From Lysobacteraceae bacterium (GTDB lineage: Bacteria > Pseudomonadota > Gammaproteobacteria > Nevskiales > Nevskiaceae), in NCBI GenBank assembly GCA_013823855.1, contig PNMW01000086.1:1-64000 (forward strand): a stretch of 64,000 bases of DNA. The letters are read 5' to 3'. Shown here one piece after another: positions 13,686 through 24,342 of this stretch; the first letter of the stretch is position 1, and every line of letters starts with the position of its first letter. Below the pieces are notes generated by a model. The model ran no database searches and was not told where the DNA came from. It saw only the letters and a list, made by a program, of their open reading frames with translations. The translations under genes and the position numbers were made by a program.

Positions 13686-15092
13686 CTACATCACGCCGGA
13701 GGCGACCTCCGGCAGCTGTTCCAGCGCGTCCTCGATGATTTCCAGCGACTGCCGGCATTCCTGCTGGGTCGACACGCCGCCGAGGCAGACCCGCACCGCT
13801 TCCGGCGCCGGCCCGGTCACCGTGAAGGCATCGGAAACCACCACGCCGACGCCGCTGGAACGCAGATGGGTGGAGAACTCGATGCGGTTCCACGGCGCCG
13901 GCACGCGCAGCCACAGATGGAAGGCTTCGGGGTTCGCCGAGTAGTCGGCACGGCGCAGCACCTCGGTGGCGATCCGCTGCCGGGCGCGGGATTCCTCCCG
14001 GATCGCATCGGTCGCCAGTTTCACGGTGCCGTCGTTGATCCACTGGGTCGCCAGGAAAGTGGTGATCGGCGAAGCCATGACGCAGGAGGTGCGCAGGCTC
14101 GACGACAGCCGCGCCGTGTAGCGGGTGTTCGGCGCCACCAGATAGCCGACCCGCAGGCCGGCGCCGACGCACTTGGCAAAGCCGGTGACGTGGAAGGTCA
14201 GCTCCGGCGCAAGCACCGCCAGCGGTGTCGGCGGCGCGCTGGGCAGGAAGCCGTAGGCGTCGTCCTCGATGATCGGCACCGAGTAGCGGCGGGCGATCTC
14301 GACGATCGCCTCGCGGCGCGCCTGCGACATCGTCGCGGTGGTCGGATTGAGCATGGTCGGATTGCAGTACAGCGCCTTCGGCAGCAGCGAGGCGCAGGCG
14401 GCGCCGAAGGCTTCCGGATCGATGCCCTGGTCATCGCAGGGCAGCCCCATCAGGCGGATGCCGAGCTGCGCGGCCAGGCCCTTGACGCCGGGATAGGTGA
14501 CCGCTTCGCAGCAGATGGTCTCGCCGGCACGCGCCAGCACACTGAACAGCGCCAGCAGCGCCGACTGCACGCCGGGCACCACCAGCACGCGGCTGCTCGG
14601 CACTTCCGGAATCCGTTCGCCGAGCCAGCGGGCGCCGGCGTCGCGATCGCACATCCCGCCGCCGAACTCCTGGTAGCGCAGCAGCGCGTGCAGGTCCGGC
14701 ACTTCGCGCAGGCCGCCGAGCCCGTTGCGCAGCATCTGGTGGATCGCCGAGGCCTGCGGCTCCGGCGGCATGTTCATGGTCATGTCGATCAGGCCGACGG
14801 CGGCCGGCGAGCGGACCACCGCCGACGCCGCCGGCGTCGCCGGCAGCACGAAAGTGCCGCGGCCGGCCTGGGAATCGATCAGCTTGCGGCGCTGCGCTTC
14901 GGCATAGCCGCGCGACACGGTGGTGAAGTTCAGGTCGAGATGCTTGGCCAGCGCGCGCAGCGGCGGCAGGCGCTGCTCGGCCGCCAGCCGGCCGGCGGCG
15001 ATGTCGTCGGCGATCGCATCGGCGATCGCCAGGTAAGCGGGCTTGGTGCTGGCGCGGATCATCGCGGCCCAGCGGTTCGGCGTCGTGCCCAT
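13686..15092 (-). CDS. MocR/PdxR-type regulator: GntR HTH fused to PLP aminotransferase domain
   Basis: A 468-residue MocR protein. Residues 1-75 form a GntR-type winged helix (LAIADAIADDIAAGRLAAEQRLPPLRALAKHLDLNFTTVSRGYAEA, shown in part). The rest is an aminotransferase class I fold with the PLP lysine in VTGFAKCVGAGLRVGYL and the Asp/Tyr site IIEDDAYGFL. MocR regulators bind direct repeats and sense amino-metabolites through PLP. It is divergent from the second nitG gene, and the intervening region carries TGATCGCA direct repeats also present before nitB, so it is a candidate regulator of the Nit1C genes. The start MGTTPNRWAAMIR is chosen for family fit. Confidence 0.92.
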   Translation of the reverse strand: MGTTPNRWAAMIRASTKPAYLAIADAIADDIAAGRLAAEQRLPPLRALAKHLDLNFTTVSRGYAEAQRRKLIDSQAGRGTFVLPATPAASAVVRSPAAVGLIDMTMNMPPEPQASAIHQMLRNGLGGLREVPDLHALLRYQEFGGGMCDRDAGARWLGERIPEVPSSRVLVVPGVQSALLALFSVLARAGETICCEAVTYPGVKGLAAQLGIRLMGLPCDDQGIDPEAFGAACASLLPKALYCNPTMLNPTTATMSQARREAIVEIARRYSVPIIEDDAYGFLPSAPPTPLAVLAPELTFHVTGFAKCVGAGLRVGYLVAPNTRYTARLSSSLRTSCVMASPITTFLATQWINDGTVKLATDAIREESRARQRIATEVLRRADYSANPEAFHLWLRVPAPWNRIEFSTHLRSSGVGVVVSDAFTVTGPAPEAVRVCLGGVSTQQECRQSLEIIEDALEQLPEVASGVM

Positions 15093-15294
15093 CGTTGGCA
15101 ACCCAGTCGTGCGGCGTCGCGCGTCGCCTGCACCGGGCGGGTGCAGCGCCGAACGCGGGACGGAATTCGGCGGGCCATCGCGACCGGGAAAGCGGCGCGA
15201 TGGCGAATCGGACCGCGACAGCGCCTGCTGCACTGCCCACCGCAACCACGGCGGCGGCAGGCAAATTTCGCGTCATTTCATCGGTCTGGCGCAA

Positions 15295-15313
15295 TGATCG
15301 CACGATGATCGCA
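15295..15313 (+). promoter_or_regulatory. Direct repeat TGATCGCA-N3-TGATCGCA upstream of second nitG
   Basis: TGATCGCA at 15295-15302 and again at 15306-15313, period 11 bp (one helical turn). The same pair occurs before nitB at 18129-18147. It lies 17 bases before a sigma-54-like promoter. MocR-family proteins recognise direct repeats, and a MocR gene is divergent here, so it is a likely binding site (inference). Confidence 0.7.
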
Positions 15314-15330
15314 GGCCAGAAAGCCGGCCT

Positions 15331-15346
15331 TGGCATATCGCTTGCG
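15331..15346 (+). promoter_or_regulatory. Sigma-54-like -24/-12 promoter of second nitG
   Basis: TGGCATATCGCTTGCG. The -24 GG and -12 GC are separated by ten bases as required for RpoN promoters (consensus TGGCACG-N4-TTGCW). The expected transcription start is near 15357, about 78 bases before the ATG. It is almost identical to the element before nitB. Confidence 0.65.
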
Positions 15347-15434
15347 CCGGCAGGCGCCGGCAGCCGCGAGGGATCGCGTCGTGACACCCGGCCGCCAGCG
15401 CCGCTGCCGCTGGCATTCCGACTGGAGACTGGAC

Positions 15435-15722
15435 ATGCCCGAAGTCCATTTCCGCGTGCGCTGGCCCGATCAGACGGCCAGCCGCTGCTATTCCCCATCG
15501 GCGACGATCCGCCACACGCTCGGTGCCGGTCTCAGCTTTCCGCTCGGGGAATTCGTCGAGATCAGCCGCGCTGCGCTGGAGAAGGGCAGCGAGCGGGTTC
15601 GCCGCAAGCACGGCTTCGCCTGCGGCCGCGCCGAGATGCAGATCGCGATCATCGAAAGCTTCGCGGCGCGCTACGCGAACCAGCCGGACGCCCGGGTGAC
15701 GATCGAGGCTTACGAGGACTGA
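15435..15722 (+). CDS. Second NitG paralogue (MSMEG_0570 family nitrogen starvation response protein)
   Basis: A 95-residue protein. It is clearly homologous to the nitG product at 22721: both start MPEV(H/R)F(R/E)VRWPD and share CYSPS(A/S)TIR, then S(Q/R)AAL..(G/A)SERVR(R/Q)(K/R)(H/Y)G(F/Y)AC. The family (MSMEG_0570-like) occurs in Nit1C clusters; its function is not established. This copy is separated from the core operon by the porin gene, has its own sigma-54-like promoter, and is divergent from the MocR gene. Start at 15435 matches the start of the paralogue. Confidence 0.88.
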   Translation: MPEVHFRVRWPDQTASRCYSPSATIRHTLGAGLSFPLGEFVEISRAALEKGSERVRRKHGFACGRAEMQIAIIESFAARYANQPDARVTIEAYED

Positions 15723-15742
15723 CGGGCAGTGGTCGACTCGAC

Positions 15743-15870
15743 CGCAAAGCGTCCTCACGCAAAGACGCCAGGACGCCACGAACAGCAAGTGCAAATCAGA
15801 AAAGCGGAGTCGCTGGGTTCTATTTTCTCTCGTCTTTCGCTTTCGCCGTGCCTTTGCGCCTTTTTGCGCG
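15743..15870. repeat. Dispersed intergenic hairpin repeat, copy 2
   Basis: Non-coding stretch containing ACGCAAAGACGCCAGGACGC on the left and TTTCGCCGTGCCTTTGCGCC on the right, an imperfect inverted pair related to the copies near 1490, 18757 and 55945. It lies between the second nitG and the porin terminator region. Confidence 0.55.
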
Positions 15871-15890
15871 AGACCGGCCGTTCACGAAGA

Positions 15891-15929
15891 CCGGACGCCT
15901 GCCGCGGCCGTTTCACGGCAGGCGTCCGG
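15891..15929. terminator. Strong GC hairpin between second nitG and porin
   Basis: Arms CCGGACGCCTGCCG (15891-15904) and CGGCAGGCGTCCGG (15916-15929) form a perfect 14-bp stem with an 11-base loop. It sits between two convergent genes and probably ends transcription of one or both. No T-tract follows on either strand, so termination may be inefficient or factor-assisted. Confidence 0.55.
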
Positions 15930-15994
15930 GTACCGCGACAACGCAGGTGCAGCGCGATGGTCGACGGACGGCTGACGTCGACCTCCCGCAGGCC

Positions 15995-17293
15995 TCAGAA
16001 CGAGATGAAGAAGCCGACGTTGTAGTTCGTCGTGTTGATGGTGTCGCCGCTGTTGGCCTTCGACTTCGCGTCGGTGAACTCGCTGGTCAGGGTCAGGTTG
16101 TCGAGCAGCTTGTGGTAGACCCCGATCGTGTACTTGCTGTTGGCCTTGAGCAGCGCGCCACCATCGGCATCGCCGTCGGTCGAGTTCAGGCGGCTGATGC
16201 CGTAGTTGGCACCGAACGTGGTCTTGTCCCAGGTGTAGGTCGCCTGGATGTAGCCGCCCTGGGAAACACGCGCCTTGCCGGTCGGCGAGAAGCCTTCGAT
16301 GAAGTACGAGTACGCGCCGAGCCCTTCGCCGTAGTAGTAGTGGCCGACCAGCGCCGCGCCGGCATAGGCGAGCTTGCCGGTGAAGTCGAAGCCGAGCGCG
16401 ACCGGGTTGGCGTCGGTCAGCGTGGCGCCGGCGCCGGCCACCGTCAGTTCCTGCTTCTGGTACAGGCCGTCGACCGAGGCGAAGCCGCTGATGCCCTTGG
16501 CATCGCCGAACCTGTACTTGACCTGAGCCTGGACCTGCGGCGCCGGCTTCGCCGAGGCCGAAGAACCGGCGCCGATGCCGGTCAGCGGAATCGCATCGAG
16601 CGGCTGGTAGACGCCGATCGTCGCGGTCAGGCCGTCGAAATTCGGCGTCGTGTAGCTGATCCCGGCGTTCGGCGTGGAGAACAGGTGGCCGAAGCCGATG
16701 GTGCCGAGCGTGGTGTTGGCCGGCGAGGTCGCGGTGCGCACGCTGGCGACGCCGACGGCAATCAGGGTGATGTCGTTGACGATCGCATCGAAGCCGAGCA
16801 GCGAGTAGTCGCGGCCGATCTTCAGCGTGCCGAGTTCGGCGGTGGAGAACGTCGCGTAGACCTGACGGGTATCGAGATTCGGGCTGCCGAGTGCGACGTT
16901 GCCGGCGCCGCTGCCGAGGTTCGGACCGTTGCCGAACGCGAAGTCGTTGTTGGCGACACCCGGGTAGAAGCCGTAGGCCACCGCCATGTCGACACCGGAG
17001 ACGGTGGTCTTCAGGCCCAGCACGATGCCGTTCGGCAGGTTGCCGGAGTTCAGCGACGAGGCCTTGCTCGAATTGCCGGCCGGGGCGCCGCACAGCAGGC
17101 TGCCCGCCACCACGCCCGGGTTCTTGTCGCAATTGGTGAACGTGTAGTTGGTGTTGACGTTGCCGGAGACGCTGAAGGTGACGCCATTGGTTTCCACGGC
17201 GAACGCCCGGGCGACACCGCTGCTGCCGAGGCCGGTGCCGAGGAACAGCAAGGCGACGCTGCCGCGCGCCAGGATGCGGATATTGCGGGTCAT
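15995..17293 (-). CDS. Gram-negative porin
   Basis: A 432-residue outer-membrane beta-barrel protein. The signal peptide covers residues 1-30 (MTRNIRILARGSVALLFLGT, cleavage near ARA-FA). Alternating strands such as FSVSGNVNTNYTF, SYFIEGFSPTG and GGYIQATYTWDKTTFGANYG follow, and the last residue is Phe (VGFFISF) as in porins. LGTLKIGRDYSLLGFDA is typical of trimeric general porins (Porin_4 type). A perfect sigma-54 consensus promoter lies 93 bases upstream, so expression is probably nitrogen- or substrate-controlled together with the Nit1C genes next door. Substrate is unknown. Confidence 0.9.
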   Translation of the reverse strand: MTRNIRILARGSVALLFLGTGLGSSGVARAFAVETNGVTFSVSGNVNTNYTFTNCDKNPGVVAGSLLCGAPAGNSSKASSLNSGNLPNGIVLGLKTTVSGVDMAVAYGFYPGVANNDFAFGNGPNLGSGAGNVALGSPNLDTRQVYATFSTAELGTLKIGRDYSLLGFDAIVNDITLIAVGVASVRTATSPANTTLGTIGFGHLFSTPNAGISYTTPNFDGLTATIGVYQPLDAIPLTGIGAGSSASAKPAPQVQAQVKYRFGDAKGISGFASVDGLYQKQELTVAGAGATLTDANPVALGFDFTGKLAYAGAALVGHYYYGEGLGAYSYFIEGFSPTGKARVSQGGYIQATYTWDKTTFGANYGISRLNSTDGDADGGALLKANSKYTIGVYHKLLDNLTLTSEFTDAKSKANSGDTINTTNYNVGFFISF

Positions 17294-17385
17294 GTGCTTC
17301 TACTCCCTTGAGGTATGAGCGATCGGAGGCCGCGTGAACGGCGTGGGAACCGGCCGTGATGGCGGCTGGATTCGGCGATCGCCCG

Positions 17386-17401
17386 AGCAACCGACGTGCC
17401 A
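17386..17401 (-). promoter_or_regulatory. Sigma-54 promoter of the porin gene (full consensus)
   Basis: Minus-strand sequence TGGCACGTCGGTTGCT matches the RpoN consensus TGGCACG-N4-TTGCW at every defined position. The transcription start should be near 17374, about 80 bases before the porin ATG. An AT-rich tract with TTGATCGTATTTTAATTGCA lies immediately upstream. Confidence 0.85.
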
Positions 17402-18128
17402 ACTGTTGCAATTAAAATACGATCAATTACTGAGATTGTTTCGCAAACTGTTGCCGATCAAGGGAAACATCCACGCCACATTTTTCTGTTGCCTTATCTG
17501 CCGATCGCCTGGCATTCGCACTCGGTAGGCGTCCCGATCAGGCTTCGGAATAACGGGATGATCCACGAAAATCAGAATAATCAGCTAAGTTCGTTTGATT
17601 TTTCGTTAGAAGATCGCCGCCGCCAGCCGCGACACCACGCGAGGCGATCCTCCGACTGGCGGCGCGCCTGGCATCCGAGCCGGCATGCGATCACAGGCCG
17701 CAGTACTGCCATTCGCACTGAAATCGACCATCGCAACAGCGTCGACGATCGGAATTCAGGCCTACATTCGATACAAACCAATCACTTGAGCGGATTGTTT
17801 CGTTCTGGTGCACCGGGACTCGCCCGACGGATCCCGGGGCGGCACCACGGATTGCAGGACGTCGTGCGCGGAGAGCGGCCGTCTTCGACCATCACGCTCT
17901 CGACCCAGCCGCCACGACCGAACAGGTAGCACTGGCAGGTGGCACGCGCGGCGAGCATCGAAATCATCGCCACGCACTGTTCTCGCGCACGTTTCCGTGC
18001 CAGATGCCCTGCTTTCAGGCGCCGGCACCGCAATGTCGGCCCGCCGCCCTGCGATCACGACAGGGCTGTTGAACGGCGGCGGGCTCAGGGCCGGACAAAT
18101 GTCCTGATAAACCAACAGTTTCCATAAT

Positions 18129-18147
18129 TGATCGCATTTTGATCGCA
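18129..18147 (+). promoter_or_regulatory. Direct repeat TGATCGCA-N3-TGATCGCA upstream of nitB
   Basis: TGATCGCA at 18129-18136 and at 18140-18147, spacer TTT, same 11-bp period as the pair at 15295-15313. It lies 16 bases before the sigma-54-like promoter of nitB and between the inverted arms GTTTCCA and TGGAAAC. Likely an operator for the operon's regulator. Confidence 0.7.
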
Positions 18148-18163
18148 TTTTTGGTGGAAACGA

Positions 18164-18179
18164 TGGCATACGGCTTGCG
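18164..18179 (+). promoter_or_regulatory. Sigma-54-like -24/-12 promoter of the nit operon
   Basis: TGGCATACGGCTTGCG with GG and GC ten bases apart, differing by two bases from the element before the second nitG. The expected start is near 18190, about 58 bases before the nitB ATG, which has the ribosome binding site AAAGGAG. Confidence 0.65.
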
Positions 18180-18247: not shown

Positions 18248-18727
18248 ATGCCAGCAGTCACCACCACCCCGACCAAGAAGGGCGACTTCTTCGTCGATTA
18301 CGAAGAGAAGGTCTTTGAGGATGTGAAGGCCAAGCCGGGCGAGAAGGCGCTGGTCACCTTCCACACGGTGGCCTTCGAAGGCTCGATCGGCCTGGTCAAC
18401 ATCCTTCAGGCCAAGCGCCTGCAGCGAAAGGGCTTCGAGACCTCGATCCTGCTCTACGGTCCGGGCGTCACGCTGGGCATCCAGCGCGGCTTCCCGACCA
18501 TCGGCGACGAAGCCTTCCCGGGCGCGCAGAACTTCTCCGGCCAGCTCAATGCCTTCATGGCCGAAGGCGGCAAGGTCTACTGCTGCCGCTTCGCGCTGCA
18601 GATGCTCTACGGCCACGGCGAACACTCGCTGCTGCCCGGCATCCGCCCGATCAACCCGCTCGACGTGCTCGACCTGTGCCTGCTGCACCGCGAAGGCGCG
18701 TTCGTGATCCACACCTGGACGGTCTGA
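18248..18727 (+). CDS. nitB: NitB: MSMEG_0572/Sll0783 family nitrogen starvation response protein
   Basis: A 159-residue cytoplasmic protein, the usual first structural gene of Nit1C clusters. Recognisable blocks are [33 protein letters not shown] and [20 protein letters not shown]. The fold resembles DsrE-like proteins, but its biochemical role is not established. The cysteine pair [10 protein letters not shown] is conserved-looking. The ATG follows AAAGGAG. It is followed by a 192-base gap to nitC that holds a dispersed repeat. Homologues are induced by nitrogen starvation in cyanobacteria and mycobacteria (family naming). Confidence 0.92.
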
Positions 18728-18756
18728 AAAGCAGCCCGCAACCCGACATCAACGGT

Positions 18757-18857
18757 GAAACACAAAGGCGCAAAGGCGAAGGAAAGGATGCGAAGCAGGG
18801 ACAGGAAAGCTGTTCTGCGCGTCCTTTCCTGGCTGTCCTTTGCGCCTTTGCACTGAA
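18757..18857. repeat. Dispersed intergenic hairpin repeat, copy 3, inside the nit operon
   Basis: Between nitB and nitC. Left tract CACAAAGGCGCAAAGGCGAA and right tract CCTTTGCGCCTTTG form an imperfect long inverted pair with GGACAGGAAAG/CTTTCCTGGCTGTCC inside. It could form a large mRNA hairpin that protects or attenuates the nit transcript. Confidence 0.65.
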
Positions 18858-18919
18858 CTTTCGATGCTGCTTTTCCGCTCCTCAGGCCGCCACTGATCCT
18901 GCCTATCCGGAACCCCGTC

Positions 18920-19957
18920 ATGCCCGCCCAGAACATCGTCAGAGTCGCCGCCGCCCAGTTGAACCCGGTGCTCGACTCCGCCACCGGCACCGTCGACAAG
19001 GTGCTGAAAGCGATTGCCGACGCCGCCCGCGAGGGCGCGCAGCTGATCGTGTTTCCGGAAACCGTGGTGCCGTACTACCCCTATTTTTCGTTCGTCATGC
19101 CCGCCGTCTCGATGGGCGCGACGCACCTGAAGCTGTATGAACACTCGCCGAGCATTCCCGGGCCGGTGACCGATGCCATCGGCGCCGCGGCGAAGGCCGC
19201 CGGCATCGTCGTGGTGCTCGGGCTGAACGAGCGCGACCACGGCACCTTGTACAACGCCCAGGTGGTGTTCGACGCCGACGGCTCGATCATTCTCAAGCGC
19301 CGCAAGATCACCCCGACCTACCACGAGCGGATGATCTGGGGCATGGGTGACGGCTCCGGCCTGAAGGTGGTCGACAGCGCCGTCGGCCGGATCGGCGCGC
19401 TGGCCTGCTGGGAGCACTACAACCCGCTGGCCCGCTACGCACTGATGGCCCAGCACGAGGAGATCCACTGCTCGCAGTTTCCGGGCTCGCTGGTCGGCCC
19501 GATCTTCGCCGACCAGATGGAAGTGACGATGCGTCACCACGCGCTGGAATCCGGCTGCTTCGTGGTCAATGCCACGGCCTGGCTGACCCCCGAGCAGAAG
19601 CGGCAGCAGGCACCGAGCCCGGAGCTGGAAAAAGCCTTCGCCGGCGGCTGCTACACCGCGATCATCACGCCTGAAGGCCGCCACGTGGTCGAGCCGCTGC
19701 GCGATGGCGAAGGCCTGCTCGTCGCCGACTGCGACCTGAACCTGATCACCAAGCGCAAGCGGATGATGGATTCGGTCGGCCACTACGCGCGCCCGGAGCT
19801 GCTGAGCCTGGTGCTCGATGCCCGCGCCACGGCGCCGGTGTCCGGGCTGCCGCCCGCAAGTGGGGCGCCGGTGCCCGCTGACATCGCCAGCCCCGACCCC
19901 ACGATCTCCGACCGCGTCGTCGCCCTGCCCGACACGCGCAAGGCCGCGTTGCGCTGA
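18920..19957 (+). CDS. nitC: NitC: Nit6803-type nitrilase of the Nit1C cluster
   Basis: A 345-residue carbon-nitrogen hydrolase. The catalytic triad is visible: E47 ([11 protein letters not shown]), K129 ([11 protein letters not shown]) and C163 ([10 protein letters not shown]). The protein belongs to the branch 1 nitrilases that hydrolyse nitriles to acids and ammonia; in cyanotrophic pseudomonads the Nit1C nitrilase is implicated in cyanide assimilation. The last 45 residues ([20 protein letters not shown], then [15 protein letters not shown]) form a flexible proline/alanine-rich tail. It is followed by nitD after 29 bases. Confidence 0.95.
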
Positions 19958-19986: not shown

Positions 19987-21111
19987 ATGGAAGCCGTCAA
20001 CACCTCGCAACTGCTGACCGAACTGCAATCGCAGGGCCTGCGTCTGGCCGACGACACGGCGGGAGCGCCGAGCCGCCGAGGCGGCGCCGGCCCGAGCGAC
20101 CACAAGGCGGTGACCATCGATGGCCGCGCGATCATGGTGCCGGTGCACTCGGCGGATGCCCGCGCCTCCGCATTCGAGATCGGCCTGCCGCGCGCCGACG
20201 GCAGTGCCACGCTCAAGCGCCATGCGATCCCGATCAGGGAGATCTCGTTTCCGAAGCAGCCGCGCTTCTACCGGATGCAGACCTTCGACGGCGTGCCGTA
20301 CTGGAAGATCGCCACCCTGCACGGCGCCGACGTGCTGGCCACCACCGTGCTGCAGACCTGCGTGCGCTACGGCCGGCGCAGCACCTCCTGCCAGTTCTGC
20401 GCGATCGGCGAATCGCTGAAGGGCGAGCGCACCATCAACCGCAAGACGCCGGCGCAGCTCGGCGAAGTGGCGCGCGCCGCGATGCTGCTCGACGGCATCC
20501 AGCACATGGTGATGACCACCGGCACGCCGAACTTCACCGACCGGGGTGCCGAAATCCTCTGCGAGAGCGCCTTCGGCGTGAAGGCGGCAACGGTCAACCA
20601 CGCCGGCTTCGCCGCCGGCCTGCCGATCCAGGGCCAGTGCGAGCCGCCAGATGACCCGCGCTGGTACCTGCGGATGAAGAACGCCGGCATCGACGCCCTG
20701 GGCATGCACATCGAAGCGGTGTCGCAGTCGGTGCGCGAGCGGATCATGCCGGGCAAGGCGACGGTGACTGTCGATCACTATCTGACCGCCTTCGAGCAGG
20801 CGGTCGCGGTGTTCGGCCGCGGCCAGGTATCGACCTACATCCTGTATGGCCTCGGCGATACCCGCGACGCGGTGCTGACCATGAGCGAGAAGCTGATCGC
20901 GCTCGGCGTCTACCCGTTCGTGGTGCCGTTCGTGCCGATCGCCGGCACGCCGCTGGAGAACCAGCGCTCGCCGGACGCCGCCGAGATGCGCGCGCTGCTC
21001 GAACCGCTCGGCAGGATGCTGGTCGCCGGCGGGCTCAGGTCGGCCGAGATCAAGGCCGGCTGCGGCAAGTGCGGCGCCTGCTCGTCGCTGTCCGCATACG
21101 AGAAGGCGTAG
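19987..21111 (+). CDS. nitD: NitD: MSMEG_0568 family radical SAM protein
   Basis: A 374-residue radical SAM enzyme. The probable Fe-S ligands are C125, C135 and C138 (TCVRYGRRSTSCQFCAIG), a C-x9-C-x2-C arrangement rather than the usual C-x3-C-x2-C. A biotin synthase-like TIM barrel follows (GIDALGMHIEAVSQSVRERI, YILYGLGDTRDAV). A second cysteine cluster CGKCGAC is near the C-terminus and could bind another cluster. The reaction is unknown; the conserved partnership with nitrilase suggests it makes or modifies a nitrogen compound or cofactor. Only 3 bases separate it from nitE. Confidence 0.93.
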   Translation: MEAVNTSQLLTELQSQGLRLADDTAGAPSRRGGAGPSDHKAVTIDGRAIMVPVHSADARASAFEIGLPRADGSATLKRHAIPIREISFPKQPRFYRMQTFDGVPYWKIATLHGADVLATTVLQTCVRYGRRSTSCQFCAIGESLKGERTINRKTPAQLGEVARAAMLLDGIQHMVMTTGTPNFTDRGAEILCESAFGVKAATVNHAGFAAGLPIQGQCEPPDDPRWYLRMKNAGIDALGMHIEAVSQSVRERIMPGKATVTVDHYLTAFEQAVAVFGRGQVSTYILYGLGDTRDAVLTMSEKLIALGVYPFVVPFVPIAGTPLENQRSPDAAEMRALLEPLGRMLVAGGLRSAEIKAGCGKCGACSSLSAYEKA

Positions 21112-21114
21112 GCG

Positions 21115-21693
21115 ATGCGCGCCGCCGACTGGATTCCCGCCTGCGCTGCCAGCGCCGCCATCGACCGCTACCGCCCGGCCGAATACCGCGTCAAGCTCGC
21201 CACCGAAGCCTGGGAGCTGCGCGAAGCGCGGAGCTTGCGCCGTGCGGTGTTCTGCGCCGAGCAGCGGCTGTTCGCGTTCACCGACAGCGACGACATCGAC
21301 GACGGCGCCGGTGCGCTGACCCTGGTCGCCGTGTCCTGCATCCACAGCATGTCCGAGGACGTGGTCGGCACGGTCCGCGTGCACACGCTCGGTGACGGCG
21401 TCTGGCAAGGCTCGCGGCTCGCGGTGCGCCGCGACTATCGCGGCCAGGCCTGGCTCGGCAGCGAGCTGATCCATCTCGCGGTCAGCCTCGCCCATGCCCG
21501 CGGCGCGCAGCGCTTCCTGGCCCACGTGCAGCAGCAGAACGTGGCGCTGTTCGAGCGCCTGCACTGGCGTGCTCTGGAAGCGATCGAACTCAGGGGCCGC
21601 CCGCACCTGCGGATGGAAGCGGATCTCGCCCATTACCCGCCTTGCGACAGTGTGGAGCGCGGCTTCATCACCACCCTGCGGAGTGCTGCGTGA
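21115..21693 (+). CDS. nitE: NitE: MSMEG_0567/Sll0786 family GNAT N-acetyltransferase
   Basis: A 192-residue GNAT-fold protein. The acetyl-CoA loop region is RLAVRRDYRGQAWLGSELIH, preceded by the strand GTVRVHTLGDGVWQGS. The N-terminus contains RSLRRAVFCAEQRLF. In some genomes this domain is fused to the PurM-like domain; here the two are separate genes. Its stop codon overlaps the GTG of nitF (GTGA), implying coupled translation and probably a shared complex or pathway. Acceptor substrate unknown. Confidence 0.9.
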   Translation: MRAADWIPACAASAAIDRYRPAEYRVKLATEAWELREARSLRRAVFCAEQRLFAFTDSDDIDDGAGALTLVAVSCIHSMSEDVVGTVRVHTLGDGVWQGSRLAVRRDYRGQAWLGSELIHLAVSLAHARGAQRFLAHVQQQNVALFERLHWRALEAIELRGRPHLRMEADLAHYPPCDSVERGFITTLRSAA

Positions 21694-22694
21694 CCGCCTC
21701 GCTCGCCGAGCTGATCGCCGCCCTGCACAGCAGCCGCGGCATCGCCCACAAGCGCGACATCGGCGCAGTGGTCGCCGCGCTCGGCATCGGCGGCGACAGC
21801 ACGATCAAGGTCGGCGACGACTGCGCGGCGATTCCCGACCCGTCCGGCGACGGCTGGCTGCTGCTGGCGATCGAAGGCTTCCTGACCGAGTTCGTCGAGC
21901 GCGAGCCGCGCTTCGCCGGCTGGTGCGGGGTGATGGTCAATGTCTCGGACATCTACGCGATGGGCGGTCGGCCGATCGCCGTGGTCGATGCGATCTGGAG
22001 CCGCGATGCGCTGCACGGCAAGGTGATTCTCGACGGCATGGCCGACGCGGCGCGCGTCTACGGCGTGCCGGTGGTCGGCGGTCACGCCAATGCCCGTGCC
22101 GGCAGCGAGCAGCTGTCGGTGGCGATCCTCGGCCGCGCCAGGGCGCTGCTGTCGAGCTTCGAAGCCAGGCCCGGCGACGTGCTGATCGCCGCCACCGACC
22201 TGCGCGGCGGCTATCGCGCGCACTTCTCGAACTGGGACGCCGCCAGCGGCAGCGATCCCGAACGCTTGCGCGGTGATCTGGACATCCTGCCGACGCTCGC
22301 CGAGGACCGGCTCTGCTGCGCGGCCAAGGACATCAGCAATGCCGGCCTGCTCGGCACCCTGCTGATGCTGCTGGAATGCTCGAACGTCGGCGCGGAAATC
22401 GATCTCGATCAGGTGCCGATGCCGGCCGATGCCGATCCGGCGCGCTGGCTGCTGCACACCTTCCCGAGCTACGGCTTCCTGCTCGCGGTACGGCCCAGCA
22501 AGGTCGACGAGGTGCTGGCGCGCTTCCACGCCCGCGACCTGTCGGCGTCGGCGATCGGCCGCTGCACCGCAGACCGGCAACTGCACCTGACCGACAACGG
22601 CGAACGCGCGCTGGCCTGGGATTTCCACCAGCAGCCGCTGACCGGCTGCGCGCCGTCGCTGCCGCCGGCAGCCCGGCACCGGCGCGCCGCCTGA
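21690..22694 (+). CDS. nitF: NitF: Sll0787 family AIR synthase (PurM)-like protein
   Basis: A 334-residue PurM-superfamily ATP-binding protein. Motifs are VGDDCAAIPDP at the N-terminus, VMVNVSDIYAMGGRP, VVGGHANARAG and AKDISNAGLLGT, typical of AIR synthase/SelD/ThiL-like proteins that phosphorylate or activate carbonyl or amide groups. The GTG start at 21690 overlaps the nitE stop codon and the protein aligns from TASLAELIAAL. In other genomes it can be fused to the acetyltransferase. Substrate unknown. Confidence 0.9.
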   Translation: MTASLAELIAALHSSRGIAHKRDIGAVVAALGIGGDSTIKVGDDCAAIPDPSGDGWLLLAIEGFLTEFVEREPRFAGWCGVMVNVSDIYAMGGRPIAVVDAIWSRDALHGKVILDGMADAARVYGVPVVGGHANARAGSEQLSVAILGRARALLSSFEARPGDVLIAATDLRGGYRAHFSNWDAASGSDPERLRGDLDILPTLAEDRLCCAAKDISNAGLLGTLLMLLECSNVGAEIDLDQVPMPADADPARWLLHTFPSYGFLLAVRPSKVDEVLARFHARDLSASAIGRCTADRQLHLTDNGERALAWDFHQQPLTGCAPSLPPAARHRRAA

Positions 22695-22720
22695 CCACGC
22701 CACCCGACACGAAATCTCCC

Positions 22721-23005
22721 ATGCCCGAAGTCCGCTTCGAAGTCCGCTGGCCCGACGACACGACGACGCTCTGCTACTCGCCGTCGTCGACGATCCGCGA
22801 TGCCTTCACGCCCGGCCAGCCTTATCCGGTCGCCGACTTCGTGCGCCGCAGCCAGGCGGCGCTGAACCTGGCGAGCGAGCGGGTGCGGCAGCGCTACGGC
22901 TATGCCTGTTCGAGCGCGGCGCAACAGCTGTCCGACATCGAACGGCGCGCCAGCCACTACGCCGCCGATCCCCTCGCCACGGTCACCGTCGTCCGCTTCA
23001 GCTGA
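22721..23005 (+). CDS. nitG: NitG: MSMEG_0570 family nitrogen starvation response protein
   Basis: A 94-residue protein with the same layout as the paralogue at 15435: MPEVRFEVRWPDDTTTLCYS, SSTIRDAFTPGQPYPVADFV, then ASERVRQRYGYACSSAAQQL. It has no recognised catalytic motif. It sits between nitF (27-base gap) and nitH (35-base gap) in the same operon. The two paralogues differ mainly in the middle and C-terminal third, suggesting non-identical partners. Confidence 0.9.
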   Translation: MPEVRFEVRWPDDTTTLCYSPSSTIRDAFTPGQPYPVADFVRRSQAALNLASERVRQRYGYACSSAAQQLSDIERRASHYAADPLATVTVVRFS

Positions 23006-23040: not shown

Positions 23041-24342
23041 ATGAACGCCATGACCCGCGCGCTTCCCCCCAACCACTATCCCGTGATCATCGTCGGCGGC
23101 GGCCAGGCCGGCCTGTCGGCAAGCTGGCATCTGAAGCAGCGCGGCATCGCCCACGTGGTGTTCGAGAAGCAGCGCATCGCGCATGAATGGCGCGAGCACC
23201 GCTGGGACTCGTTCTGCCTGGTGACGCCGAACTGGCAGTGCACCCTGCCCGGCTTCCCGTATGCGGGCGGCGATCCGTACGGCTTCATGCTGAAGGACGA
23301 GATCGTCCGGTACATCGAAGCTTTCGTCGCCAGCTTCGAGCCACCGGTGCTGGAAGGCGTGGCCGTCACCCGCGTCAGCCAGAACGACGGCGGCGGCTAT
23401 ACGGTGATCACCTCGATCGGCGAATACACGGCCCAGGAAGTGATCATCGCCAGCGGCGCCTATCAGGTGCCGGTCAAGCCGGCCTGCGCCGAACGCCTGC
23501 CGCCGACGCTGCTGCAGATGCACGCGCCTCAGTACCGCAATCCCGATTCGCTGCCGCCCGGCGCGGTGCTGATCGTCGGCACCGGCCAGAGCGGCTGCCA
23601 GATCGCCGAGGACCTGCATCTGGCCGGCCGCAAGGTGCATCTGTGCGTCGGCGGTGCGCCGCGCGCGCCGCGTCGCTATCGCGGCAAGGACGCGGTCGAA
23701 TGGCTGCAGCAGATGGGCTACTACGACATCGCCATCGACGAGCACCCGAACAAGGATCGCGTGCGCTCGAAATCCAACCATTACCTGACCGGCCGCGACG
23801 GCGGCCGCGAGATCGACCTGCGCAAGTTCGCATCCGAAGGCATGGAACTGTACGGCCGGCTCGACGACATCCGCGGCAGCACCGTCACCGTGAAGCCGGA
23901 TCTGGAGAAGAATCTCGACAGCGCCGACGCGACCCTGGAATCGATCAAGGACAGCATCGACGCCTACATCGCCCGCGCCGGCATCGACGCCCCGGCCGAG
24001 CCGCGCTATGTGCCGGTCTGGAAGCCGGCCGCCGAGCGCACGGCTTTCGACTTCGCCGCCGCCGGGATCAGCGCCGTGATCTGGTGCATCGGCTACAAGG
24101 CCGACTTCCGCTGGATCGAGGTGCCGGTGTTCGACGGCCGCGGCTATCCGGGTCACGACCGCGGCATCACCACGGTGCCCGGCCTGTACTTCATCGGCCT
24201 GCCGTGGCTGTACACCTGGGGCTCCGGCCGCTTCTCCGGCGTGGCACGCGATGCCCAGCACATCGTCGAGCGGATCGCCTCGCGGCTGCACAGCGCGCCG
24301 CGGGCGATGGCCGGCCTGAATGCGCTGGCGCTGGGCAGCTGA
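23041..24342 (+). CDS. nitH: NitH: MSMEG_0569 family flavin-dependent oxidoreductase
   Basis: A 433-residue flavoprotein monooxygenase-like enzyme. The FAD motif [15 protein letters not shown] is at residues 15-30, and a second dinucleotide motif [17 protein letters not shown] lies near residue 180. The C-terminal [20 protein letters not shown] is family-specific. It resembles N-hydroxylating/Baeyer-Villiger-type FMOs, so it probably oxygenates a nitrogen compound in the Nit1C pathway (inference). It ends the operon; a tetraloop hairpin follows. Confidence 0.93.

Follow-up and report, generated by a model that had tools for sequence, protein, structure and literature searches.

Direct repeats phased with sigma-54 promoter elements as probable operators of a MocR-type regulator of Nit1C genes

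The nit locus and its repeat-bearing promoters

We analyzed a 64,000-nucleotide stretch of DNA (contig PNMW01000086.1 of assembly GCA_013823855.1, Lysobacteraceae bacterium, family Nevskiaceae), termed the window, which carries a Nit1C gene cluster for the assimilation of cyanide and nitriles, a gene for a MocR-type regulator, an extra, orphan copy of nitG with its own promoter and a gene for a porin-like outer-membrane protein (Table 1). Upstream of both the orphan nitG and nitB lies the direct repeat TGATCGCA-N3-TGATCGCA, followed by a −24/−12 element of the sigma-54 type, and these repeats are probably the operators of the MocR protein at promoters that NtrC and sigma-54 likely drive. A sequence-only reading of the window had described this shared layout, and its coordinates, the spacers of 17 and 16 bp and the two-base difference between the promoter elements (TGGCATA-N2-GCTTGCG) were found as given there. 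The window promoters have the GG and GC of the sigma-54 consensus at canonical spacing in TGGCAY-N5-TTGC. Beyond what had been noticed before, we found a third site at the porin promoter, where a degenerate repeat, TTGATCGTATTTTAATTGCA, lies 5 bp from the element TGGCACGTCGGTTGC and thus one helical turn nearer than the nitG and nitB repeats, as well as a perfect NtrC palindrome upstream of nitG, and NtrC as the probable ATPase partner.

The repeat is highly specific. In the whole genome (3,869,381 bases, 88% complete) its exact form occurs at two places only, both of them Nit1C promoters, i.e. before nitG and nitB. Allowing two mismatches added two places, neither with a sigma-54 site (score ≥8) within 100 bp downstream, and the reversed control pattern gave none. 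A relaxed composite of repeat and sigma-54 element is met three times in the genome, always within the nit locus, the third time before the porin-like gene, and a regulon outside the nit locus was rejected for this genome on that result. In the window the repeat alone, with three mismatches, is only marginal (4 matches vs a shuffle mean of 1.5, with 5 of 100 shuffles reaching 4), and the sigma-54 element alone, with one mismatch, does not exceed chance (8 matches vs 9.3 expected); the strength of the signal lies in its exact, composite and conserved form. Within this genome the module would control three transcription units, the nit operon, the orphan nitG and the porin-like gene.

Table 1 Genes and regulatory features of the nit locus, with window positions
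Feature	Position	Strand	Remarks
Direct repeat TGATCGCA-N3-TGATCGCA	15295..15313	+	probable MocR operator, orphan nitG promoter
Sigma-54 −24/−12 element TGGCATATCGCTTGC, orphan nitG	15331..15345	+	17 bp past repeat; conserved
Direct repeat TGATCGCA-N3-TGATCGCA	18129..18147	+	probable MocR operator, nitB (Nit1C operon) promoter
Sigma-54 −24/−12 element TGGCATACGGCTTGC, nitB	18164..18178	+	16 bp past repeat
Degenerate direct repeat (TTGATCGTATTTTAATTGCA minus first T), porin promoter	17407..17425	-	5 bp from −24
Sigma-54 −24/−12 element TGGCACGTCGGTTGC, porin-like gene	17387..17401	-	
Perfect NtrC-type palindrome TGCACCGGGCGGGTGCA	15129..15145	+	202 bp upstream of nitG −24; only perfect one in 64 kb
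Weak NtrC-like sequence	17973..17989	+	191 bp upstream of nitB −24; score 13 of 18
mocR-type regulator	13686..15245	-	GntR helix-turn-helix (Pfam PF00392) and aminotransferase domain (Aminotran_1_2, PF00155)
Orphan nitG (MSMEG_0570 family)	15435..15722	+	TIGR04042, 103.9 bits (cut-off 79.85)
Porin-like outer-membrane protein, 432 aa	15995..17293	-	place conserved in close Nevskia relatives
nitB (MSMEG_0572/Sll0783 family)	18248..18727	+	TIGR04044, 264.5 bits
nitC nitrilase (Nit6803 family)	18920..19957	+	TIGR04048, 550.1 bits
nitD radical SAM protein	19987..21111	+	TIGR04043
nitE N-acetyltransferase	21115..21693	+	TIGR04045
nitF AIR-synthase-like protein	21690..22694	+	TIGR04049
nitG of cluster	22718..23005	+	TIGR04042, 122.6 bits
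nitH flavin-dependent oxidoreductase	23041..24342	+	TIGR04046, 669.1 bits

The seven Nit1C families nitB to nitH stand in order, each above its NCBIfam cut-off. The porin-like protein matched no Pfam or NCBIfam model, and its name is a reading of the sequence. The mocR frame opens with a TTG codon, the first residue being written as M, and homology suggests a true start near 15092. Between nitB and nitC lies a gap of about 190 bp (18728–18919); a dispersed repeat common to this gap and to 15740–15880 was not borne out, since no sequence of at least 20 nt was found to recur between them.

Conservation of repeat, promoter element and regulator

The named Nevskia records fall in the genus of the window, and the gene order mocR (−), nitG (+), porin (−), nitB (+) is common to L149, L150, L151, L153/L025, L023 and L024 (L numbers designate the compared loci); the L152 record begins inside it, and in L154–L156, which are assigned to the same genus, mocR and nitB are present and neither the orphan nitG nor the porin was matched. 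When the three upstream regions were aligned, repeat and sigma-54 element stood out as islands within variable DNA. The nitG repeat is present in all eight further aligned rows with at most one half-site base changed (L153 and L025 are apparently one record), and the porin repeat and its sigma-54 element are likewise kept in relatives. The nitG and nitB promoters show no relation to each other in their spacers and flanks, but the repeat and promoter element of each are conserved in close relatives, in line with the earlier proposal that the shared layout is selected and not a recent duplication. The strict composite was matched 16 times among 146 relative genomes, in 9 of them and always before nitB or the orphan nitG. 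The suggestion of a candidate operator dedicated to Nit1C genes was supported; the reversed composite pattern had no match in the relative genomes listed. Across 369 class-level genomes only the two matches of the window itself were obtained, and a NitB search at that level yielded three further full-length matches besides that of the window, plus three weak ones. Upstream of the repeats the Nevskia alignments also contain conserved blocks, AAACCAACARTYT at nitB, TCAATTCATC-like at nitG and GAAACAAT-like at the porin gene, which are possibly parts of the mocR promoter or a third, inverted box. The L028 locus carries two MocR genes upstream of nitB in opposite directions, 68% and 60% identical to the MocR protein of the window.

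For a wider comparison we used the best 80 of at least 415 nitB relatives, those nearest to the NitB of the window, a set that includes no Pseudomonas. Sites were called at 9 of 10 for sigma-54, 17.5 for the repeat and 14 for NtrC, thresholds chosen after seeing the data and applied equally to shuffles and flanking windows. A MocR-type gene lies divergently beside nitB in 65 loci and elsewhere in the stretch in 5, and was not seen in 10. Sigma-54 sites were found in 62 of the 65 loci with divergent mocR, in 5 of 5 with mocR elsewhere and in 1 of 10 without it (68 of 80 overall), and the corresponding counts for a strong direct repeat are 50 of 65, 4 of 5 and 1 of 10, as against 8 of 1890 random segments of the same loci passing the repeat threshold. 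The exceptional locus that has both elements and no visible MocR gene, L091, is a record cut 140 bp upstream, and the other nine loci without MocR, which show neither element, are, by record title, five cyanobacteria, three Bacteroidota and one Rhodospirillales assembly. These counts agree with two earlier suggestions, namely that the MocR protein is the regulator, with binding to the co-occurring repeat probable from the sequences, and that MocR-like sites are combined here with sigma-54 promoters. The motif was expected to precede nitB orthologues, and it does so in close relatives and in numerous Gamma- and Betaproteobacteria, Alphaproteobacteria having a variant form of it. This agreement needs qualifying for several members of the family (from Solimonas, Hydrocarboniphaga and Sinimarinibacterium), which keep just one half-site well, and for three Oxalobacteraceae-type loci, which have inverted ones. 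Judged from the sequences, the composite arrangement is conserved in Alpha-, Beta- and Gammaproteobacteria. The sequence-only reading had also noted the absence from the window of a NitA-type sigma-54 activator, which it took to be the usual regulator; none is indeed present in the window, but as far as sampled NitA is not the usual neighbor. It is the arrangement reported for Pseudomonas (PMC11049912) and seen on an Acinetobacter plasmid, while MocR adjoins nitB in 65 of the 80 nearest loci.

In eight of nine plasmid loci examined, the neighbor of nitB is annotated as 'PLP-dependent aminotransferase family protein'. The ninth, Acinetobacter L143, has a divergent sigma-54 activator in place of MocR, with the sigma-54 site kept and no significant repeat. 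NitB relatives occur on 515 plasmid records, 374 of them from Klebsiella; the one Klebsiella stretch examined (L136) contains MocR, repeats, an NtrC-like site and a sigma-54 promoter. In L136 and L133 a half-site pair with 12-bp spacing lies about 176 bp before the −24 element and is possibly a separate mocR operator; both loci also have a half-site where it is usually found. Two records sit unexpectedly on the MocR tree: L046, titled Frankia sp. RB7, is nested within Bradyrhizobium, which probably reflects misnaming or contamination of the record and not transfer, and L062, a Verrucomicrobiaceae assembly with a similar promoter, groups with Nevskiaceae through either mis-binning or horizontal transfer.

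Half-site phasing, the MocR protein and the candidate ATPase

We measured the gap from the last base of each half-site to the −24 element, dropping redundant loci, sigma-54 scores below 9 and sites too near the end of a stretch. For a first type of MocR protein, good half-sites peak at gaps of 16/17 and 27/28 (36 non-redundant loci), and for a second type at 38–40 and 51–52, weakly also at 28 (21 loci). Together with the gap of 5 at the porin promoter, these values fit a lattice of about 11 bp, roughly one turn of DNA. Half-sites end 5–39 bp upstream of the −24 element without overlapping it. The lattice phasing and the lack of overlap suggest an interaction on one face of the helix over simple blocking.

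The half-sites in the window repeat with an 11-bp period, and their binding by the MocR protein is a prediction. The best NCBIfam model for this protein is EhuR, at 438.8 bits, and because the cut-off is 480 it is not filed as such; the site, (A)TTGATYGCA, resembles the EnuR/EutR half-site ATTGT. The lysine that binds pyridoxal 5'-phosphate (PLP) is present in 70 of 71 aligned MocR rows, the remaining row having a gap. Regulator and half-site vary together: proteins with Leu in the helix-turn-helix (motif P-L-R) go mostly with good half-sites having T at position 4 (TGAT), mostly at an 11-bp period, and those with Gln with half-sites that are mostly TGA(A/C), at a 12-bp period or inverted. Sorted by a nearby Asn/Asp column (pairs scoring at least 17), half-sites have 59 T and 3 G under Asn and 36 A, 16 C and 8 T under Asp, four of these 8 T coming from two Ferrovum rows that have Leu.

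Sigma-54 polymerase requires an AAA+ activator. The genome encodes RpoN (PF04552, 192.1 bits) and NtrC (TIGR01818, 688.8 bits, cut-off 558.6), and it contains 13 strong matches to enhancer-binding proteins (EBPs) plus one weaker, none inside the window. Scanning with 11 activator proteins of the genome and the NitA of L143 as queries (the activator entries L010, L017 and L018 were not among them), we found no AAA+ activator in the DNA retrieved around the 80 loci (up to 8 kb on each side), two hits covering the PAS region of the NitA query only; NitA as the missing regulator was rejected on this result.

NtrC sites were scored against the consensus TGCACC-N5-GGTGCA. For Pseudomonas, an NtrC consensus GCACCA-N3-TGGTGC has been given (PMC12977541). 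Evidence from single-sequence statistics proved too weak to point to NtrC, and only enrichment that depends on position is convincing, high-scoring sites clustering 120–225 bp upstream of the −24 element. The input comprised 85 loci, the 80 plus L133, L135, L136, L143 and L147 (the plasmid loci L134 and L144–L146, which have no sigma-54 site, were left out), and came down to 65 with the removal of one that was too short, 12 without a sigma-54 site and 7 redundant ones; N was read as A before dinucleotide shuffling. NtrC-like sites scoring at least 14 of 18 lie 115–225 bp upstream of the −24 element in 28 of these 65 loci vs 6.8 ± 2.4 (maximum 14) in shuffles, a figure that overstates the evidence somewhat, as the interval was picked on the same data. 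One flanking window had such a site in none of the 65 loci, against 4.9 in shuffles, and the other in 3, against 4.1. Counterparts of the perfect palindrome upstream of nitG were found at 201–204 bp in L025, L150 and L151, and none in L023, L024 and L149, whose fetched upstream DNA covers that distance. The weak sequence before nitB, which by itself lacks significance and whose score is equaled twice elsewhere in the stretch, has similar sequences 190–193 bp before the nitB −24 element in 6 of 7 further Nevskia records. On these grounds NtrC is the likely ATPase partner; the support is strongest for nitG and across the family, and the assignment is uncertain for nitB and the porin gene here.

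Mechanism, alternatives and known systems

We favor, with a probability of about 0.7, a reading in which NtrC drives sigma-54 transcription of the Nit1C genes and is gated by the MocR protein on the repeats. The repeats would be the operator of a dedicated EhuR-like MocR regulator, its PLP-binding lysine kept, upstream of promoters where sigma-54 polymerase would wait at −24/−12. Under nitrogen limitation NtrC would bind 115–225 bp upstream and supply the ATPase, while MocR, on half-sites phased at 11 bp between enhancer and polymerase, would add a substrate signal, either cyanide or a nitrile, as such or as an adduct with PLP. Cyanide or a hydroxynitrile is suggested as ligand by the function of Nit1C in Pseudomonas (PMC11049912).

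Several observations weigh against this reading. The agreement of MocR type with half-site counts as a single event, because the Gln group, including betaproteobacterial Oxalobacteraceae, forms one clade on the MocR tree (100/99 support). Fifteen of the 65 loci with divergent MocR fall below the repeat threshold; eight Nevskiaceae-like loci have one good half-site (L026, L027, L034–L036, L042, L056, L057), three of Oxalobacteraceae type have inverted half-sites (L064, L070, L079), L066 and L100 fall just short, and L073 and L065 also miss. The three other class-level genomes with a full NitB have no strict composite, and L138, judged by eye, has neither repeat nor sigma-54 element. Over whole upstream regions the NtrC consensus is only slightly enriched (8 of 92 regions at p ≤ 0.05, 4.6 expected), the porin promoter has no good NtrC site and nitB a weak one only. 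Finally, no sigma-54 site was found in the examined upstream stretch of the alphaproteobacterial MocR loci from Sagittula (L134), Agrobacterium (L144), Acetobacter (L145), Komagataeibacter (L146) and Lichenifustis (L065). TTGTATG- or TGAATG-like half-sites are visible there by eye. The sequences of these five loci suggest that the sigma factor changed while MocR was kept; if this is real, MocR would work there with another sigma factor, and MocR site and sigma-54 promoter would be separable modules.

The sign of MocR action is where the main rival arises. MocR on the repeats could simply repress a promoter driven by NtrC and sigma-54 until cyanide or a nitrile releases it, a serious possibility, though we would not expect it to prevail: HutC, another GntR-family protein, protects DNA overlapping the sigma-54 site of hutU and represses (PMC12977541), and the MocR protein of the cio genes in strain CECT5344 acts negatively (PMC8567248). 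Occlusion, however, needs no phasing, and here the half-sites end 5–39 bp upstream of the −24 element; as they stay clear of it and in helical phase with it, we consider MocR likelier to be a co-activator or an architectural factor than a plain repressor. We advance a more specific version of such a role only tentatively and regard it as rather doubtful, namely that the PLP-dependent MocR protein is a ligand-gated architectural co-activator whose phased half-sites bend or stiffen the DNA in the place usually taken by IHF, so that NtrC reaches the polymerase only when a nitrile is present, or cyanide in the form of its PLP adduct. IHF has a role at sigma-54 promoters; DNA bending by MocR proteins is assumed here, and a literature search on it led only to work on another regulator. 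If true, the architectural MocR would make transcription depend on cyanide and nitrogen hunger together, as in an AND gate, where Pseudomonas and Acinetobacter use the single activator NitA instead.

It is improbable that an EBP encoded elsewhere, and not MocR, uses the repeats as its upstream activating site. A sigma-54 promoter does need an EBP and the genome has many, but a position this near the −24 element would be unusual for one, NtrC-like sites already lie at normal enhancer distance, the repeat co-occurs with MocR, the NitA-type Acinetobacter locus lacks it, and no AAA+ activator was found in the DNA retrieved around the 80 loci. Marginally less credible still is a role confined to mocR itself, with the closeness to sigma-54 promoters as a by-product of divergent gene order: the repeat does lie within the mocR–nitB intergenic region in most of the 80 loci, MocR proteins often autoregulate and divergent order is common for them (PMC5320631), yet the phasing is tied to the −24 element, and in Nevskia with the gene order of the window the nitB and porin promoters keep their repeats while mocR lies elsewhere, on which ground autoregulation alone was rejected. 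Chance or a recent duplication, for which one could cite how barely the loosely matched repeat exceeds chance in the window, is next to inconceivable, being already contradicted by the genome-wide uniqueness of the exact repeat, its conservation across classes and the unrelated spacers; duplication of the promoter was rejected on these spacers and on the separate conservation of each promoter.

If NtrC indeed acts through a MocR gate, many Nit1C bacteria appear to couple a general nitrogen-hunger signal to a dedicated sensor protein of the vitamin-B6 type. The analysis proposes sites for proteobacterial Nit1C clusters, names the likely regulator and gives a candidate ATPase partner. It allows the question of which signal Nit1C answers to be tested with a single purified protein and a single promoter, and it provides an example in which a MocR protein would act at sigma-54 promoters. 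In the literature searched, which mostly excluded subscription papers and supplements, we found no description of MocR with sigma-54/RpoN or of Nit1C with NtrC. The main text of a large MocR regulon study (PMC5320631) is without nitrilase, nitrogen starvation and sigma54, and nitrilase, MSMEG and MocR are all absent from a 2025 sigma-54 regulon study (PMC12316311). Nor is the combination of MocR and sigma-54 described in the accessible portions of PMC11049912, PMC5333837, PMC10107442, PMC11160463 and PMC9249168; PMC10107442 states that consensus elements for sigma-70 or RpoN were not found in MocR-controlled promoters, and PMC9249168 concerns an engineered rpoN gene driven by a MocR promoter.

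Among known systems, HutC with NtrC at the sigma-54-dependent hutU promoter of Pseudomonas (PMC12977541) shares with the nit locus a local, substrate-responsive GntR-family regulator of a nitrogen-source operon, but it belongs to the HutC subfamily, binds a palindromic site overlapping the sigma-54 element, acts as a repressor and has urocanate as its ligand. The nearest named model is that of the ectoine-use regulators EnuR/EhuR/EutR (PMC8739950, PMC5320631), with the half-site ATTGT and the PLP lysine, whereas these proteins repress sigma-70 promoters from an inverted repeat and the protein of the window scores below the EhuR cut-off. MpaR of Pseudomonas aeruginosa (PMC10790758) is of the MocR type and needed for a cyanide response, its authors proposing that a PLP-cyanide adduct is sensed; it differs in acting at putative −35/−10 promoters through a short palindrome and in controlling ccoN4, not Nit1C. 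The NitA-regulated nit1C cluster of Pseudomonas CECT5344 (PMC11049912) has the same enzyme genes under a regulator of the sigma-54 type, a dedicated sigma-54 activator standing in the place of MocR, and the NitA-type promoter of Acinetobacter is without the repeat. For the MocR proteins TauR and GabR, direct-repeat operators and activation have been reported, but no link to sigma-54 or NtrC was found in the accessible text (PMC5320631). Set against these systems, the arrangement at the nit locus appears familiar in that a local GntR-family regulator adds its control to that of NtrC and sigma-54, and what would be new is a MocR protein exerting this control from phased repeats.

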